Notes under the pieces: model-generated
Database searches by the model: none
What the model was told of the DNA's origin: nothing
What the model saw: the letters and a program-made list of their open reading frames with translations, nothing else
Assembly (NCBI RefSeq): GCF_001427305.1
Contig: NZ_LMFZ01000001.1
Location: 373,261 to 437,260 of the forward strand
DNA: 64,000 bases
DNA from: Duganella sp. Root1480D1
GTDB taxonomy: Bacteria; Pseudomonadota; Gammaproteobacteria; Burkholderiales; Burkholderiaceae_D
Direction: 5' to 3'
Made by a program: the position numbers and the translations under genes
Shown here: piece by piece, positions 37,349-63,199 of the stretch
Layout: every line of letters starts with the position of its first letter
Position numbering within the stretch: position 1 is the stretch's first letter

Positions 37349-39229
37349 TTAAACAACCTGGTCCAGCGTCTTGCCGGCCAGTGCGCTGCGCACGCTGCGG
37401 TCCATGCGGCGCGATGCGAATTCTTCGGTGCCCTGGGCCAGGGCTTCATAGGCGGCTTTCACCGCGTAGTGGTCGGCTTCACCGCTGCCGGATTTCACCA
37501 GCATGTCCATGGTGGTAGCCATCAGGGCGTTGATCGCCGCGCGCTCTTCGTCGTTCAGCAGCGCGCCGTCTTCGTCCAGTGCGGACTGGGTGGCCAGCAT
37601 GATGCGCTCCGCCTCCACCTGCTCTTCGCGCAGGGCACGGGCTTTCATGTCGGCTTCCGCTTCGGTGTGCGATTCGGACAGCATGCGCGCCACGTCGTCG
37701 TCGCCCAGGCCATAGGATGGCTTGACGGTGATCGAGGCTTCCACGTTGGAGCGCAGCTCGCGTGCGGACACGGACAACAGGCCGTCGGCATCCACCTGGT
37801 AGGTGATGCGGATGCGTGCAGCGCCGGCCGCCATCGGCGGAATGCCGCGCAGTTCGAAGCGCGCCAGCGAACGGCAGTCGCTCACCAGTTCACGCTCGCC
37901 TTGCAGCACGTGCACTGCCAGCGCGGTCTGGCCATCCTTGAAGGTGGTGAACTCCTGCGCACGGGCGCATGGGATGGTGGAGTTGCGCGGAATGATCTTC
38001 TCGACCAGGCCGCCCATGGTTTCAATGCCCAGCGACAGCGGGATCACGTCCAGCAGCAGCCAGTCGTCGCCCGCGGCACGATTACCGGCCAGCAGGTTGG
38101 CCTGGATCGCTGCGCCCAGCGCCACGACCTTGTCCGGGTCGATGTTGGCGTGCGGGATGGTGTGGAAATATTCGCCCACCGCGCGCTGCACGTGCGGCAT
38201 ACGGGTCGCTCCGCCCACCATGACCACGCCGTCGATATCGTCGGCGTCGAGGTTGGCGTCGCGCAAGGCCTTCTTCACGGCGTTCATGGTCTTGGCGACC
38301 AGGTGCTTGGTGATGTCGGCGAAAATCTCAGGGGTGACACGCTGGTGCACTTCTTCGCCCGAACGCAGCATGGCGTCGATGGTCACCTCAGGCTTGGTCG
38401 ACAGCAGTTCTTTTGCTTCGCGCGCTTTCACCATCAGGGTGGCAGTGTCTTCGTCGGACAGCGGTGCCAGTTTTTCCTGCTCGTGCACCCAGCAGAACAG
38501 ACGGTGGTCGAAGTCGTCGCCGCCCAGTGCGGAATCGCCGCCAGTGGCCAGCACTTCAAACACGCCCTTGGACAGCTTGAGGATCGAAATGTCGAAGGTG
38601 CCGCCGCCCAGGTCGTACACGGCGAAGATCCCTTCCGAGCCGTTATCCAGGCCGTAGGCGATTGCCGCGGCAGTCGGTTCGGACAGCAAGCGCAGCACGT
38701 TGATGCCGGCCAGTTGCGCGGCATCCTTGGTGGCCTGGCGCTGCGCTTCGTCGAAGTAGGCAGGCACGGTGATCACGGCGCCAACCAGGTCGTCGCCCAG
38801 CGAATCTTCCGCGCGCTGGCGCAAGGTGGCCAGGATCTGCGCCGACACTTCCACCGGCGACTTCACGCCGGCCACGGTTTTCAGCTGCACCATGCCGGGA
38901 GCATCGACGAAATCGTATGGCAGGTTTTCGGCGTAGGCGATGTCTTTCAGGCCGCGGCCCATGAAACGCTTGACCGACACGATGGTGTTCTTCGGGTCGG
39001 TGGTCTGATGCGCCTGGGCTTTGTAACCGATGTTGGCATGGCCGTTTGGCAGGTAACGCACCACGGAAGGCAGCAGGGGATGGCCGTCTTCGTCGTTCAG
39101 CACTTCTGGAATGCTGCTGCGGACGGTCGCTACCAGCGAATTGGTGGTGCCGAGGTCGATACCCACTGCCAGGCGGTGCTGGTGCGGGGCGGTCGACATG
39201 CCCGGTTCGGAAATCTGCAAAAGAGCCAT
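37349..39229 (-). CDS. hscA: Fe-S protein chaperone HscA (Hsp70)
   Basis: A 626-residue specialised Hsp70 that releases clusters from IscU. The nucleotide-binding motifs are [31 protein letters not shown] and [17 protein letters not shown]; the substrate-binding part includes [15 protein letters not shown]. It acts with HscB on the LPPVK motif of IscU, encoded upstream in the same operon. AGG-type ribosome site before ATG 39229. Confidence 0.97.
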
Positions 39230-39250
39230 GGTGAAACCTGTCTTGTTCTT

Positions 39251-39805
39251 TTACGCCTCGATGGCGTCGTAAGCGAAGCGCACTTCTTCGCCGAATTTTT
39301 CGATGAACATCAGCGCGCGCACACCTTGCGCGACGGCGTGATAGTCACCGGCGTTGCAATGTTGTTCGATCTCCGCCAACTGGGCCTTGCGGGCCGCGCG
39401 CAACTGGCCGTCCAGCTTGTCCAGCAAATCGGCATCCTTGTCGGCACGCGCTTCGGACAGCTCTTCGCGCCACTCCATCTGCTGCATCAGGAATTCCATC
39501 GGCATGGCCGTGTTGGATTCCATCTTCAAATCGACGCCATTCAGCTCGCACAGGTATTGCGCGCGCTTTTGCGGATTCTTCAGGGTCTGGTAAGCCTCGT
39601 TGGAGCGGGTCGACCATTGCATGGCGACGCGCTTTTCGGCATCGGTGGCATTGACGAACTTGTCCGGGTGGACGCGGCTCTGGACTTCGCGGTAGGCGGC
39701 GTCCAGGGCGTTCGTATCGACGGCGAACTGCTGGGGAAGCTGGAAGAGTTCGAAGTGGTTCTGCACGATATTAAATGCGGAAGCTTTCGCCGCAGCCGCA
39801 TGCAT
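39251..39805 (-). CDS. hscB: Fe-S co-chaperone HscB (J-domain)
   Basis: A 184-residue J-protein with the HPD motif in [16 protein letters not shown], and the C-terminal helical domain ([18 protein letters not shown]) that binds IscU. It stimulates the HscA ATPase. It overlaps iscA by 35 bases; the ATG at 39805 has GAGAAGG almost adjacent, so the exact start is slightly uncertain. Confidence 0.96.
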
Positions 39806-57794: not shown

Positions 57795-57918
57795 GCGGTG
57801 CCTCTATGCATTACTGTATGGATATACAGTATTCTAAACCGCCCGCCCCGCGCCCGCAAGCCAAGCTGGTATCATGCGCACTTCTCCGGGATACCCCCGA
57901 CATTCAAAGAGCAATAAC

Positions 57919-58509
57919 ATGAGCACATCGAACAATCTGCCCTCCTTTGGGAGCAGGATTTCCCTCGCCTTTGGCGCCTTCTTCAAAACCCTGGGCGATG
58001 CCGAATTCGCCGCCCGCGTGCGCGACGACAGCGTCGGCCCGACGGTGGCTCCGGCTCCGGCTCCGGCTGCTGCTCCGGCACCCGTTCAAGCTCCTGCCCC
58101 CGCCCCAGCCGCCGCGCCCCTGCGCGAAGCCACGCCAGACGCAGCGCTGCAACTCCTGTCCCTGTTCCAGCGCGAAGCACGCCTGATCGACTTCACGCAG
58201 GAAAACCTGTCCGCTTATTCGGATGCCGATATCGGCGCCGCTGCCCGCCTGGTGCATGAGGGCTGCGCCAAGGTGCTGCGCGAGCACTTCACCATCGACG
58301 CCGTCCGCAGCGAAGCGGAAGGCAGCCGCGTGACCCTGCCGGAAGGCTTCGACGCCTCTGCTGTGCGCCTGACCGGCAATGTGGTCGGCAAGGCGCCGTT
58401 CACCGGCACCCTGAGCCACCGTGGCTGGCGCGCCTCAGGCGTGCGCCTGCCGAAACTGGCGGAAGCGCATGACGCCAAAGTCCTGGCTCCGGCCGAGGTG
58501 GAACTGTGA
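57919..58509 (+). CDS. DUF2760 protein, first gene of the Hsp70 operon
   Basis: A 196-residue protein in three parts: a short N-terminal region (FGSRISLAFGAFFKTLGDAEFAARV), an Ala/Pro linker of about 30 residues (residues about 43-75), and a DUF2760 domain (ALQLLSLFQREARLIDFTQEN, ARLVHEGCAKVLREHF, then SRVTLPEGFDASAVRLTGNV and LSHRGWRASGVRLPKL). No signal peptide. The frame is open from 57874, but ATG 57919 begins the family start. Its stop overlaps the GTG of the first Hsp70 gene as GTGA. It may recruit or regulate the chaperones; this is inferred from coupling only. Confidence 0.85.
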   Translation: MSTSNNLPSFGSRISLAFGAFFKTLGDAEFAARVRDDSVGPTVAPAPAPAAAPAPVQAPAPAPAAAPLREATPDAALQLLSLFQREARLIDFTQENLSAYSDADIGAAARLVHEGCAKVLREHFTIDAVRSEAEGSRVTLPEGFDASAVRLTGNVVGKAPFTGTLSHRGWRASGVRLPKLAEAHDAKVLAPAEVEL

Positions 58510-60350
58510 GCGATCCGCGTTTTGCCATCGGCATCGACCTTGGCACTACCCACAGCGCGCTGTCGTATGTGGAACTGGCCGGCAGCGACGGCGAGAAAAC
58601 CAGGCATGGCGTGCTGGGCGTGCCCCAGCTCACCGCGCCCGGCACCGTTGAAGAACTGCCGCTGCTGCCAAGCTTCCTCTACCTGCCGCATCCGGACGAA
58701 CTGGCGGCCGGCGAACTGGCCCTTCCCTGGGCGGGCGACGGACAGCCCGCAGTGACGGGCGAAATGGCCCGCAGCCGCGGCGCCACCACGCCGATCCGCC
58801 TGGTATCGAGCGCCAAAAGCTGGCTGTGCCACCCTGGCGTGGATCGCCGCGCCGCCATCCTGCCGCATGACGCCCCGGAAGAAGTGTCGCGCGTGTCGCC
58901 GCTGGAAGCTTCGACCCGCTACCTGAAGCACCTGCGCGCAGCATGGGACAACGCCCACCCGGACGCACCGTTCACGCAGCAGGCAGTCACGGTGACGATC
59001 CCCGCATCGTTCGACCCGGCCGCACGTGAACTCACGGCCGAAGCGGCACGCGCTGCCGGCTACGAGAACGTCACGCTGCTGGAAGAGCCGCAGTCGGCCC
59101 TGTATAGCTGGATCCAGAACAGCGACGGCCGCTGGCGCAAGGAAGTCAAGCCGGGCGACATCATCCTGGTGGTGGACGTGGGCGGCGGCACCAGCGACTT
59201 TTCGCTGATCGCCATCCTCGAGCGCGACGGCAAGCTGGAGCCGCACCGGGTGGCTGTGGGCGACCATATCCTGCTGGGCGGCGACAATATGGACCTGGCG
59301 CTGGCCCACCTGGTGGCGCGCAAGCTGGCGGCCAACGGCACCCAGCTCGACGCCTGGCAGATGCGGGCCCTGACCTACGGCTGCCGCGCCGCCAAGGAAA
59401 ACCTGCTGGCCAATGCGCAGGCGGAGACCTGGCCGATCGTGGTGCCAAGTCGCGGCTCGAAGCTGATCGGCGGCTCGATCCGCACAGAATTGACGCGCGC
59501 CGAAGTCACCATCTTCATCACCGACGGCTTCTTCCCGCAAGTGCAAGCCTCCGCGCGCCCTGCCGTGCGGGCCCGCGCCGGCCTGACCCAGCTTGGCCTG
59601 CCTTATGCGCAGGACGCTGCAATCACCAGGCACCTGGCGGCCTTCCTAGCGCGCCAGGCTGGCGCCACGGCGGAACTGGAAGGCTTTGCCGTCGATCCGG
59701 CACATACCTTCCTTCATCCAAGCGCCGTGCTGTTCAACGGCGGCGTGTTCAAGTCCGAACTGCTGGCTAATCGCGTGCTGGAAACCATCAACGGCTGGCT
59801 CTCCACCGAAGGCGCAGAACCGGCCCGCATGCTGGGCGGCGCGGACCTGGACCTGGCAGTTGCGCGCGGCGCGGCTTATTACAGCTACGTGCGGCGCGGC
59901 GCCGGCGTGCGCATTCGCGGCGGTACGGCGCGCTCCTATTACGTTGCGGTGGAATCGTCGATGCCGGCCATTCCGGGCATGGAGCCGCCAATCCAGGCGC
60001 TGTGCGTGGCGCCGTTCGGCATGGAAGAAGGCAGCGAACTGGAATTGCCGGGCCAGGAGTTCGGCCTGGTGGTGGGCGAACCGGTGCACTTCCGCTTCTT
60101 CGGCTCATCCGTGCGCCGCCAGGACCAGATTGGCGCCGTGCTCGATTTCTGGGGCCCGGACGAATTGGTTGAGTTGAACGAGATCCAGGCGACGCTGTCG
60201 CCGGAAGGACGTTCCATCGGCGAGGTGGCGCAAGTGCGCCTGCATGCTTACGCCAGCGAGTCGGGCACGCTGGAACTGCTGGCCGTGGCGCAGGACGGCC
60301 AGCGCTGGAAGGTCGAATTCGACGTGCGCGGCAGCGGCGAAGGCCAATGA
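58506..60350 (+). CDS. Hsp70-family protein, first of tandem pair
   Basis: A 614-residue divergent Hsp70. ATP-site motifs are IGIDLGTTHSALSYVEL (phosphate 1), ILVVDVGGGTSDFSLIA (phosphate 2, Asp224) and AVLFNGGVFKSELLANRVL (adenosine, Asn411), so the actin-like fold appears intact. The remaining C-terminal part is only about 130 residues, with beta strands (GTLELLAVAQDGQRWKVEF) and no helical lid, unlike DnaK. It begins with GTG overlapping the DUF2760 stop. Client and J-protein unknown; no dnaJ or grpE gene nearby. Confidence 0.9.
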   Translation: MSDPRFAIGIDLGTTHSALSYVELAGSDGEKTRHGVLGVPQLTAPGTVEELPLLPSFLYLPHPDELAAGELALPWAGDGQPAVTGEMARSRGATTPIRLVSSAKSWLCHPGVDRRAAILPHDAPEEVSRVSPLEASTRYLKHLRAAWDNAHPDAPFTQQAVTVTIPASFDPAARELTAEAARAAGYENVTLLEEPQSALYSWIQNSDGRWRKEVKPGDIILVVDVGGGTSDFSLIAILERDGKLEPHRVAVGDHILLGGDNMDLALAHLVARKLAANGTQLDAWQMRALTYGCRAAKENLLANAQAETWPIVVPSRGSKLIGGSIRTELTRAEVTIFITDGFFPQVQASARPAVRARAGLTQLGLPYAQDAAITRHLAAFLARQAGATAELEGFAVDPAHTFLHPSAVLFNGGVFKSELLANRVLETINGWLSTEGAEPARMLGGADLDLAVARGAAYYSYVRRGAGVRIRGGTARSYYVAVESSMPAIPGMEPPIQALCVAPFGMEEGSELELPGQEFGLVVGEPVHFRFFGSSVRRQDQIGAVLDFWGPDELVELNEIQATLSPEGRSIGEVAQVRLHAYASESGTLELLAVAQDGQRWKVEFDVRGSGEGQ

Positions 60351-63199
60351 CGCAGTACCTGGTCAGCATTGACCTGGGCACCACCAATTCGGTGCTTGCT
60401 TATGCGGCGCCGGGCGGCGATGTGCAGTTGTTCGAAGTCGAGCAGCTTGGCGCGCCCGGCGAAGTTGGCGGCGCTGTGTTGCTGCCCTCTTCCCGTTATC
60501 ACCCCGCTGCCGGTGAATTTGCCGAAGGCGAGTTGCAGTTGCCGTGGCAGGAGCCGGTCGTGCCGGATGCGCCGCCTGGCGCGGTCATCGGCCGCCTGGC
60601 CCGCAAGCTGGGCGGCCAGGTGCCGGGGCGGCTGGTCGCCAGCGCCAAAAGCTGGCTGTCCCACACTGGCGTCGACCGCATGGCGCCGATCCTGCCCTGG
60701 GGCGCTGCGGACGACGTGGCGCGGGTGTCGCCGGTTGCCGCCAGCGCAAGCTACCTCGCGCATTTGCGGGCGGCCTGGAACACGCGCTTTCCCAGCGCGC
60801 CGCTGGAGCGGCAGCAAGTCGTACTGACCATTCCTGCATCCTTCGATGAGGGCGCGCGTGCACTCACGCTGGAGGCGGCGCGCATGGCCGGCTTGCCTTC
60901 ATTGCGCCTGCTGGAAGAACCGCAGGCAGCTTTGTATGACTGGCTGTACCGCCATCGTGCGTCATTGGCGCAGGAGCTGGCCGAGGCACGCCTGGTGCTG
61001 GTGGCCGACGTCGGCGGCGGGACCACCGACTTCACGCTCGTCAAGGTCGAGATGGCCGGCGGCCAGCCACAACTGACGCGCATCGGCGTCGGCAACCACC
61101 TGATTCTTGGCGGCGACAATATGGACCTGGCGCTGGCGCACCTGGCCGAACAACGCCTGTCTACCGGTTCCGGCAGCGCCGGCGCGGCGAACATGTCTGC
61201 GTCCGCGCCGCAACGCTTGTCCGCCGCGCGCCTCGCTCAGCTCACGGAACGCTGCCGCGCAGCGAAGGAAGCCTTGCTGGCAGCCGACGCACCGGCCCAA
61301 GTCTCCGTCACCTTGCTTGGCGCCGGCTCCAAACTGGTCGGCGGCAGCCGCTCCGTCGCGCTGCAGCGCGACGACGCCGAACGCATTGTGCTGGACGGCT
61401 TCTTTCCCCTCAACGAAACGCAGCTGCCGGCACAGGCCAAGCGTGGCGGCATCGTCGAATTCGGCCTGCCCTACGCCAGCGATCCTGCCATTACACGCCA
61501 TCTGGCCAGCTTCCTGCGCCAGCACGCCACTGCCGCGCGCGCGGCACTGGGGCTGCCGGATGACGGCACGCTTCCCGTCCCCGATACCTTGCTGCTGAAT
61601 GGCGGTGTATTCCGCGCCGCCAAACTGGCCGAGCGGCTGACCGCTACGCTGTCGGCATGGCGCGGCAAGCCTGTGCGCGTGCTGCATAACGACGATCCCG
61701 ATGTCGCAGTCGCTCGCGGCGGCGTGGCCTATGCGCTTGGCCGGCAAGGCCTGGCGCCGACCATCGCCGGCGGCTCCCCGCGCAGCTATTGGCTGCTGCT
61801 CGATAATGCCCGTGCTCCTGGCGTGACGCGACGCGCTGTCTGCCTGCTGCCTCGCGGTACGGCAAGCGGCCACGAAGTGCGCCTGGATGAACGCAGCTTT
61901 GCGTTGCGCCTTGGGCGCCCGGTGCGCTTCCACATCGCCACCACACTGGCCGATGCCGCGCCGCCGCAGGCCGGCGACGTGGCCGACCTGGCGCCGGACG
62001 ACCTGGCCGCACTGCCTGCCATCGCTACCGTCCTGCGCGACAGCAAGGACGCCAGCGCGCGCAAGGAGATCGCCGTGCAACTGGCAGCCTCGTTGACTGA
62101 AGTCGGCACGCTGGAAGTCCATTGCGAAGGCAACGGCCAACGCTGGCAGCTCGAATTCCAGCTGCGCGAGCATGGGGCAGGCGACGCGGCTGCACCGGAC
62201 GCCGAAGATGCCGGCACCGATGCCGACACCGGGCCCGCCCTGCCGGCGCGCCTGCCCGACGCGCTGGAGAGAATCGACCGCATCTTCGGCAGCCGCGCGC
62301 TGCAGGTGGACGTCAAGGAAGTGCGCCAGTTGCGCAGCCAGCTCGAACACCTGCTCGGCAGCCGCGAACGCTGGGCGACGCCCGTGCTGCGCCGCCTGTT
62401 CGACGCCTTGATGGAGCGCGCCAAAGGCCGCCGCCGTTCGGCGGAGCACGAGCGCACTTGGCTGAATCTCGCCGGCTACTGCCTGCGCCCGGGCTTCGGC
62501 CATACGCTGGACGAATGGCGCGTCGAGCAGCTCTGGGCAATTTTCGAGACCGGGGTACAGAACCACAAGGACAACCAGGTTTGCGCCGAGTGGTGGACGC
62601 TGTGGCGCCGCGTATCCGGCGGCTTGCCGCCGGCAGCGCAATTGCGCCTGCTGGACGATTTCGCCTTCAACCTGCAGGCCGACGCCAACGAACGCGGACG
62701 CCGTCCCGCGACGCTGGCCAACGGCAGCGAGGAGGACATGCTGCGCCTGGGCGCGTCGCTGGAACGCATTCCGTCCGCCTACAAGGCCGAAATCGGCAAC
62801 TGGATGGTGGGCGAACTGCCGAAAGCGAAGAGCCTCGCCACACAAACCCGCTACTTGTGGGCGTTGGGCCGGGTCGGCGCGCGCCGGCCATTCCACGGCA
62901 GCGCACATGACGTGGCGCCGGTCGAAACGGTGGAACAATGGCTGCAGGCAGTGATGCTGCTGGACTGGCGCAAGGTCGAACCGGCGGGCTTCGCTGCCGC
63001 GCACCTGGCGCGCATGACCGGCGACCGCTCGCGCGATATCAACGATGCCCTGCGTGCCGAGGTGGTACGCCGCTTGCAGACTGCGGAGGCGCCGCCAGGC
63101 TGGCCGGCCATGGTGCGCGAGATGGTCCAGCTCGACCAGGCCAGCGAACAGCGCTTGCTGGGCGAGGCCCTGCCGCCCGGCTTGAAACTTCTCAGCTAG
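60347..63199 (+). CDS. Hsp70-family protein with C-terminal DUF3731, second of tandem pair
   Basis: A 950-residue protein. The N-terminal 620 residues repeat the plan of the previous gene: [31 protein letters not shown] (Asp221), LLLNGGVFRAAKLAERL (Asn418), and a short beta domain (GTLEVHCEGNGQRWQLEF). From about residue 636 an additional helical DUF3731 domain follows (LPDALERIDRIFGSRALQVD, RRSAEHERTWLNLAGYCLRPG, EDMLRLGASLERIPSAYKAE). The extension gives it a partner-binding or scaffold potential that the shorter paralogue lacks. ATGA overlap with the first gene; a common tandem in proteobacteria but without an assigned function. Confidence 0.9.
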   Translation: MTQYLVSIDLGTTNSVLAYAAPGGDVQLFEVEQLGAPGEVGGAVLLPSSRYHPAAGEFAEGELQLPWQEPVVPDAPPGAVIGRLARKLGGQVPGRLVASAKSWLSHTGVDRMAPILPWGAADDVARVSPVAASASYLAHLRAAWNTRFPSAPLERQQVVLTIPASFDEGARALTLEAARMAGLPSLRLLEEPQAALYDWLYRHRASLAQELAEARLVLVADVGGGTTDFTLVKVEMAGGQPQLTRIGVGNHLILGGDNMDLALAHLAEQRLSTGSGSAGAANMSASAPQRLSAARLAQLTERCRAAKEALLAADAPAQVSVTLLGAGSKLVGGSRSVALQRDDAERIVLDGFFPLNETQLPAQAKRGGIVEFGLPYASDPAITRHLASFLRQHATAARAALGLPDDGTLPVPDTLLLNGGVFRAAKLAERLTATLSAWRGKPVRVLHNDDPDVAVARGGVAYALGRQGLAPTIAGGSPRSYWLLLDNARAPGVTRRAVCLLPRGTASGHEVRLDERSFALRLGRPVRFHIATTLADAAPPQAGDVADLAPDDLAALPAIATVLRDSKDASARKEIAVQLAASLTEVGTLEVHCEGNGQRWQLEFQLREHGAGDAAAPDAEDAGTDADTGPALPARLPDALERIDRIFGSRALQVDVKEVRQLRSQLEHLLGSRERWATPVLRRLFDALMERAKGRRRSAEHERTWLNLAGYCLRPGFGHTLDEWRVEQLWAIFETGVQNHKDNQVCAEWWTLWRRVSGGLPPAAQLRLLDDFAFNLQADANERGRRPATLANGSEEDMLRLGASLERIPSAYKAEIGNWMVGELPKAKSLATQTRYLWALGRVGARRPFHGSAHDVAPVETVEQWLQAVMLLDWRKVEPAGFAAAHLARMTGDRSRDINDALRAEVVRRLQTAEAPPGWPAMVREMVQLDQASEQRLLGEALPPGLKLLS

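Follow-up and report, generated by a model that had tools for sequence, protein, structure and literature searches.

Two Hsp70 paralogues and a DUF2760 protein, kept together across distant bacterial phyla, as a possible membrane-tethered machine

Three adjoining genes in a 64,000-nt window of Duganella sp. Root1480D1 (the window being the whole stretch of DNA analysed) encode a small DUF2760 protein (A), a lid-less Hsp70 (B) and a second Hsp70 extended by a DUF3731 domain (C). We find these three families together in distantly related bacteria, and there is good support for the conclusion that they make up an obligate Hsp70 system of three dedicated parts. What might such a system look like at work? 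The explanation that we favour, still tentatively, is an obligate machine tethered to the membrane, in which the two Hsp70s act as a hetero-pair.

All three genes lie on the forward strand, and their coordinates, order and stop/start overlaps are those given in an initial annotation of this DNA. Gene A (57919..58509; 196 aa; PF10816, 186 bits, E 2.7e-55) shares the four bases GTGA (58506..58509) with gene B, which starts with GTG (58506..60350; 614 aa; PF00012, 57.2 bits). Gene B in turn shares ATGA (60347..60350) with gene C (60347..63199; 950 aa), which matches PF00012 with 52.6 bits and PF12531 with 314.1 bits. Every one of these Pfam matches lies above its cut-off (20.6 bits for PF00012). 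A may also be read from an upstream ATG at 57874, which would lengthen it.

Do the three families occur together by chance? Among 299 Pseudomonadota genomes, that of Duganella included, DUF3731 is present in 21 and DUF2760 in 22, and all 21 genomes with DUF3731 also have DUF2760 (hypergeometric p 2e-31, ignoring relatedness). Neighbourhoods were compared in 20 of the 22 DUF2760 genomes, the window's own and genome G053, split over two contigs, being left out. The order A-B-C with all three genes is found in 19 of the 20; the remaining locus, L071, holds A and B close to the end of its contig. Spacing in these neighbourhoods runs from overlap to about 500 bases. A broad scan of an 84,980-species collection, with family membership judged by coverage and score, yielded at least 33 family loci (L072-L104) among the best 80 loci. 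The matches listed come from Pseudomonadota, Acidobacteriota, Verrucomicrobiota, Planctomycetota, Myxococcota, Desulfobacteraceae, Riflebacteria and Cloacimonadota. Neither DUF2760 nor DUF3731 was found in 14 control genomes. The recurrence in proteobacteria that the initial annotation had named is thus borne out, and it extends far outside them. One copy, in Cupriavidus sp. UYMMa02A (L090, 5516-10898), has A, B and C split into several frames, perhaps through sequencing errors.

Co-occurrence persists where the genes are not neighbours. From the 33 loci we chose 16, twelve for an odd or incomplete layout and four for their distance. A is present in all 16 genomes, B in 15, and C at full length in 14 and partially in the other two; ten of these genomes do not have all three genes on one contig, and another gene was called at the place of the missing neighbour. 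We also sampled the phylum to which a Spartobacteria metagenome-assembled genome (G309, locus L101) belongs, in a set of 115 genomes that comes without completeness figures. With the B profile called at E 1e-60 or better, DUF3731, DUF2760 and B are found in an identical set of 18 genomes, and none of the three in the other 97 at the thresholds used (hypergeometric p 2e-21, ignoring relatedness). As read from positions and flanks, the genes are linked in 10 of the 18 (G364 being cut by a contig end), A and B are linked with C apart in four, and all are apart in four. In G397 the three genes are dispersed along a single 5.73 Mb contig. The initial annotation had named random, unlinked occurrence as a sign against its proposal: the genes are indeed sometimes unlinked, yet they co-occur in the samples searched.

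The proteins have also diverged in step. Distance matrices from 51 genomes correlate at 0.94 for B-C, 0.85 for A-B and 0.84 for A-C. In the 12 genomes without a single A-B-C run the values are 0.77, 0.44 and 0.45, which were matched by 0, 2 and 7 of 2000 shuffles, respectively. The interpretation offered earlier finds support in one part and is weakened in another. That two Hsp70 paralogues and a small partner form a dedicated set agrees with these observations; the proposal that the overlaps keep the products in a fixed ratio is weakened, because the 4-base overlaps are not conserved and linkage itself is often absent. Spacing among relatives ranges from overlap to several kb, with a porin gene and a Na/Ca-exchanger-type gene between B and C at L062 and about 7.6 kb between them at L102.

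What distinguishes B and C from ordinary Hsp70s? In the alignments, all 58 B rows, and all C rows that extend over the sites, retain the catalytic positions D8, T11, K70 and E171, and the motif DxGGGTxD is invariant in three B/C alignments, so the claim that both proteins retain their ATP-site residues holds. The nucleotide-binding domain of C (residues 1-467; 60347..61747) is followed by a beta-type substrate-binding domain (SBD-beta; residues 476-606, 61772..62164), placed by the model and by DnaK/BiP alignments that reach residue 604-608. Homology with C puts an SBD-beta-like part at about residues 467-608 of B (59904..60329), and the alignment of B stops where SBD-beta ends. C continues for about 315 mostly helical residues (636-950; 62252..63196), which occupy the lid position, contain DUF3731 (698-948) according to Pfam and the model, and lie beyond the reach of Hsp70 alignments among the matches listed. 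This extension belongs to C alone, as had been noted, and an alpha-helical lid of the DnaK/HscA type after SBD-beta is absent from both proteins. The lack of a DnaK-type lid had been noticed before; to judge from alignment and model, it would be the only one of DnaK's C-terminal parts that B and C miss, SBD-beta being retained.

The changes reach N170 and T173, positions at which DnaK contacts its J-proteins, and the hydrophobic linker. All 58 B and all 55 C sequences that cover the N170 position have E there, and the residue at the T173 position is altered in every one of the 58 B sequences and in 53 of 55 C. The DnaK-type hydrophobic linker pattern is present in DnaK and HscA of the same genome and in none of 58 B or 58 C sequences. 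A tree computed by a quick method unites the C rows in a single supported group, which also takes in one B row (L165, with 12% of its columns filled); five B rows stand at the base, so that monophyly of B is not supported, and the tree carries a long-branch warning.

The AlphaFold2 model of A (26-row alignment; mean pLDDT 79.1) has helices at residues 10-36, a linker, helices at 73-123, four strands and a loose end; it matched no fold in the PDB. The N-terminal helices (10-25 and 28-36; 57946..58026) are amphipathic, with a hydrophobic moment of 0.44, and are the proposed membrane-binding part. The DUF2760 domain proper, helices followed by short strands, spans residues 73-195 (58135..58503). 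In the tail (residues 180-196; 58456..58506), which ends in APAEVEL, pLDDT falls to about 50-60. Within the last nine residues, 49 of 61 homologues carry the motif [AP]-[AVIC]-E-[VIL]-[EQ], and six more have AQVEL. A tail that is conserved yet loose in the monomer model suggests a binding motif.

Transmembrane-like N-termini occur in 31 of 61 DUF2760 proteins and in 80 of 290 control genes compared over equal 75-residue windows (p 7e-4), the controls being genes called by our own script with uncurated start codons; after thinning the count is 25 of 52 (p 5e-3). Among the remaining DUF2760 proteins, 16 of 30 have an amphipathic N-terminus at a moment of 0.35, as have 45 of 210 controls over equal windows. 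A stronger amphipathic excess (17 of 26 against 34 of 206) came from unequal windows and was discarded; over equal windows it shrinks to a modest one that varies with the threshold. DUF2760 may thus serve as a membrane anchor or adaptor. We also considered DUF2760 as a GrpE-like factor, an idea raised by the order of helices then strands and by the tail. It was rejected: PF01025 (GrpE) gives no match on A, and hhalign comparison of 61 DUF2760 with 27 GrpE sequences returns probabilities of 0.2 and 0.3%. Pfam finds no J-domain match in DUF2760 either.

From these elements we infer the following arrangement. The machine would sit on the cytoplasmic side of the inner membrane. A would anchor it there by an N-terminal helix, transmembrane or amphipathic, with a flexible linker, and would offer a small domain whose conserved tail binds one of the Hsp70s. 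B would be the lid-less Hsp70 ATPase and C its paralogue, with the helical DUF3731 domain in place of a lid. Both would hydrolyse ATP and probably work as a hetero-pair, much like Hsp70 and Hsp110 or the ribosome-associated complex (RAC), while C and A would take over what a J-protein, an exchange factor and a lid do for DnaK. The client acted upon, or assembled, would presumably be near the membrane. A bolder form of this proposal, which we think unlikely, sees a bacterial counterpart of Hsp70-Hsp110 at the inner membrane that runs without J-protein or GrpE; here the paralogues would control each other's nucleotide cycle, and the tail of A would be a built-in ligand docking in the open substrate groove of B.

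Several observations weigh against a membrane-tethered, self-sufficient machine. One metagenome-assembled genome among the 16 chosen, G307, has no detectable B. The tests of co-occurrence and correlation are not corrected for relatedness, and common descent explains part of the correlation. At a moment of 0.40 the amphipathic share drops to 8 of 30 against 26 of 210 controls (p 0.05), and after thinning to 6 of 27 (p 0.23); the window's own A falls into this weaker, amphipathic class. The DnaK linker pattern is also missing from L003, another Hsp70 of the Duganella genome. Finally, that genome has DnaK, HscB and GrpE, and DnaJ and GrpE may serve B and C in trans.

This last point leads to the alternative that we rate highest, though we doubt it: B and C could be conventional client-dedicated chaperones of the HscA kind, served in trans by DnaJ/GrpE or HscB, with DUF2760 as the client or its carrier. 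HscA profiles are indeed the top NCBIfam matches of both proteins, the genome encodes HscA along with DnaK, HscB and GrpE, and one plasmid copy of the set adjoins groESL. The scores, however, are 80.9 bits for B and 73.3 bits for C, far under the HscA cut-off of 708.55 (for DnaK, TIGR02350, 52.8 and 47.8 bits with a cut-off of 822.55); both J-contact positions (N170 and T173) are changed, as is the linker, and the neighbourhoods compared show no recurrent client-like gene next to the operon. Could the Hsp70 fold instead serve as an actin-like switch, in an ATP-switched membrane scaffold or signalling unit that is no chaperone at all? The missing lid of B would suit such a role, as would weak matches to the MreB family (24.4 and 14.5 bits) and protein kinase genes beside B at L162 and beside C at L175. 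We regard this as rather improbable, since SBD-beta is kept (in C by the model, in B by homology), the MreB matches stay below the cut-off of 27 and are expected from the common ATPase fold, and kinase neighbours occur at two loci only among the neighbours scanned with Pfam.

A third possibility, an accessory stress or mobile-element module for plasmid maintenance or anti-phage defence, seems to us very improbable. In its favour, two Bradyrhizobium plasmids that were typed as conjugative carry the set, and anti-phage genes accompany an A-B pair on Thiodictyon plasmid pTs485. Against it, neighbours at other loci look ordinary, PADLOC gives partial ATPase-domain matches only (24.8 and 14.6 bits) and none for DUF2760, and DUF2760, the one family searched for there, is unmatched in 50,697 phage records. 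Plasmid records matching the C sequence number 50, of which 10 cover 80% or more; four were inspected. On Bradyrhizobium pCB82_1 (L213, 6387-14898), one of the conjugative-typed plasmids, A-B-C is followed by groES-groEL, a possible mobile protein-folding cassette. On pTs485 (L215, 206-14726) the genes around the A-B pair are of anti-phage, VapC and TIR-domain kinds, and no C is annotated alongside.

The surroundings of the set offered little in the way of further partners. Pfam scans of three flanking genes found no J-protein and no GrpE, in keeping with the earlier remark that neither adjoins the operon; the nearest J-protein gene found is hscB, with hscA, at 37349-39805 on the reverse strand, about 18 kb upstream. 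Across 89 loci no GrpE was found. A loose J-domain pattern gave 15 matches at these loci, one of them J-domain-like (L103), which is a weak negative since the pattern missed the window's HscB; a stricter pattern, which missed it too, matched at L103 only. The L103 J-domain belongs to an HscB-type gene beside an HscA-like gene. In the whole Duganella genome, PF00012 matches DnaK, HscA, two other Hsp70-type genes and an MreB-type gene (labelled from sequence and context), and PF01025 a single GrpE near dnaK. Four carriers of the set, G018, G026, G030 and G053 (family f36), have, in addition to the normal GrpE, a further and divergent match (52.9-64.2 bits); in G026 the set is present with DUF3731 not detected. 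Such a divergent match also occurs without the set, in G002, G022, G037, G049 and G057.

No recurrent partner gene was seen beside the set in distant genomes, among the selected neighbours that were scanned with Pfam. Clustering of flanking open reading frames (ORFs) from 54 loci by blastp gave lineage-bound neighbours, one mixed cluster of nine loci and one of five loci of the ATP-binding cassette (ABC) type. Neither of the last two was taken as a partner, the nine-locus cluster having no Pfam identification and the five-locus cluster standing in varied places. A 292-aa HEAT-repeat gene directly follows B, at the usual place of C, at L085:4783-5661 and L172:8030-8908, with C on another contig. 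G142 and G158 have a Uup-type ABC gene upstream of A (the gene at L064 was scanned). These neighbours, like the protein kinase genes at L162 and L175, were seen in single lineages.

In the window, the operon is flanked on the opposite strand by a PA0069-type radical-SAM gene on one side and a DTW gene on the other. Scans at the operon revealed no sigma-70-like site, no terminator-like site and no Rfam match. A LexA-like box, TACTGTATGGATATACAGTA, lies between the radical-SAM gene and the operon (57812-57831). It agrees at 18 of 20 positions with the E. coli SOS consensus and is the sole match of at least 14 in the 64 kb. SOS control of the operon was considered and set aside. Because no other ORF among the 125 A or B ORFs scanned (the window included) has such a box, it probably marks the divergent radical-SAM gene as SOS-controlled.

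How does the set compare with systems already described? The absence of an assigned function, asserted at the outset, is confirmed in the literature searched, most subscription papers lying outside it: no paper there names DUF2760, DUF3731 or their Pfam identifiers or gives a function for the set. In a paper on DnaK paralogues (PMC11019930), the term 'DUF' is absent from the main text. A report on Shewanella AtcJABC (PMC6715715) describes a small operon for cold adaptation that is linked to DnaK, in which atcA and atcB overlap. AtcA, AtcB and AtcC (20, 29 and 34 kDa) have no known domain reported and are encoded with a J-protein; small size and overlaps are shared with A-B-C, but protein sizes, domains and the J-protein differ. 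Myxococcus StkA is likewise an Hsp70 with a special, non-heat-shock role, but its 540 aa and its SCP2-like and PhaE-like neighbours differ from ours (PMC4319316). Neither the Atc locus, nor the Stk locus, nor anti-phage defence fits as the identity of the set.

Compared with DnaK and HscA, B and C lack the helical lid and the DnaK-type linker, have changed J-contact positions, score far below the DnaK and HscA cut-offs, and come as a pair with DUF2760. In eukaryotes, Hsp70 and Hsp110 are a pair of Hsp70 paralogues, of which Hsp110 is enlarged at its C-terminus; B and C likewise are two paralogues, one with an enlarged C-terminal part. Unlike that pair, the A-B-C set is bacterial, and B and C both keep their catalytic residues. 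In a Foldseek search with the C model, the Hsp110 Sse1 ranks 50 among the matches listed, below ordinary Hsp70s, and RAC entries rank 45 and 48. In Ssz1-Zuo1, the RAC, an atypical Hsp70 is a fixed subunit of a dedicated machine, much as we propose here; unlike it, A-B-C has no J-protein partner that we found, DUF2760 being without a J-domain match. Hsp70 machines are generally regarded as dependent on J-proteins and exchange factors. Two Hsp70s with a possible membrane adaptor, kept together across distant phyla, could represent another mode of running Hsp70.

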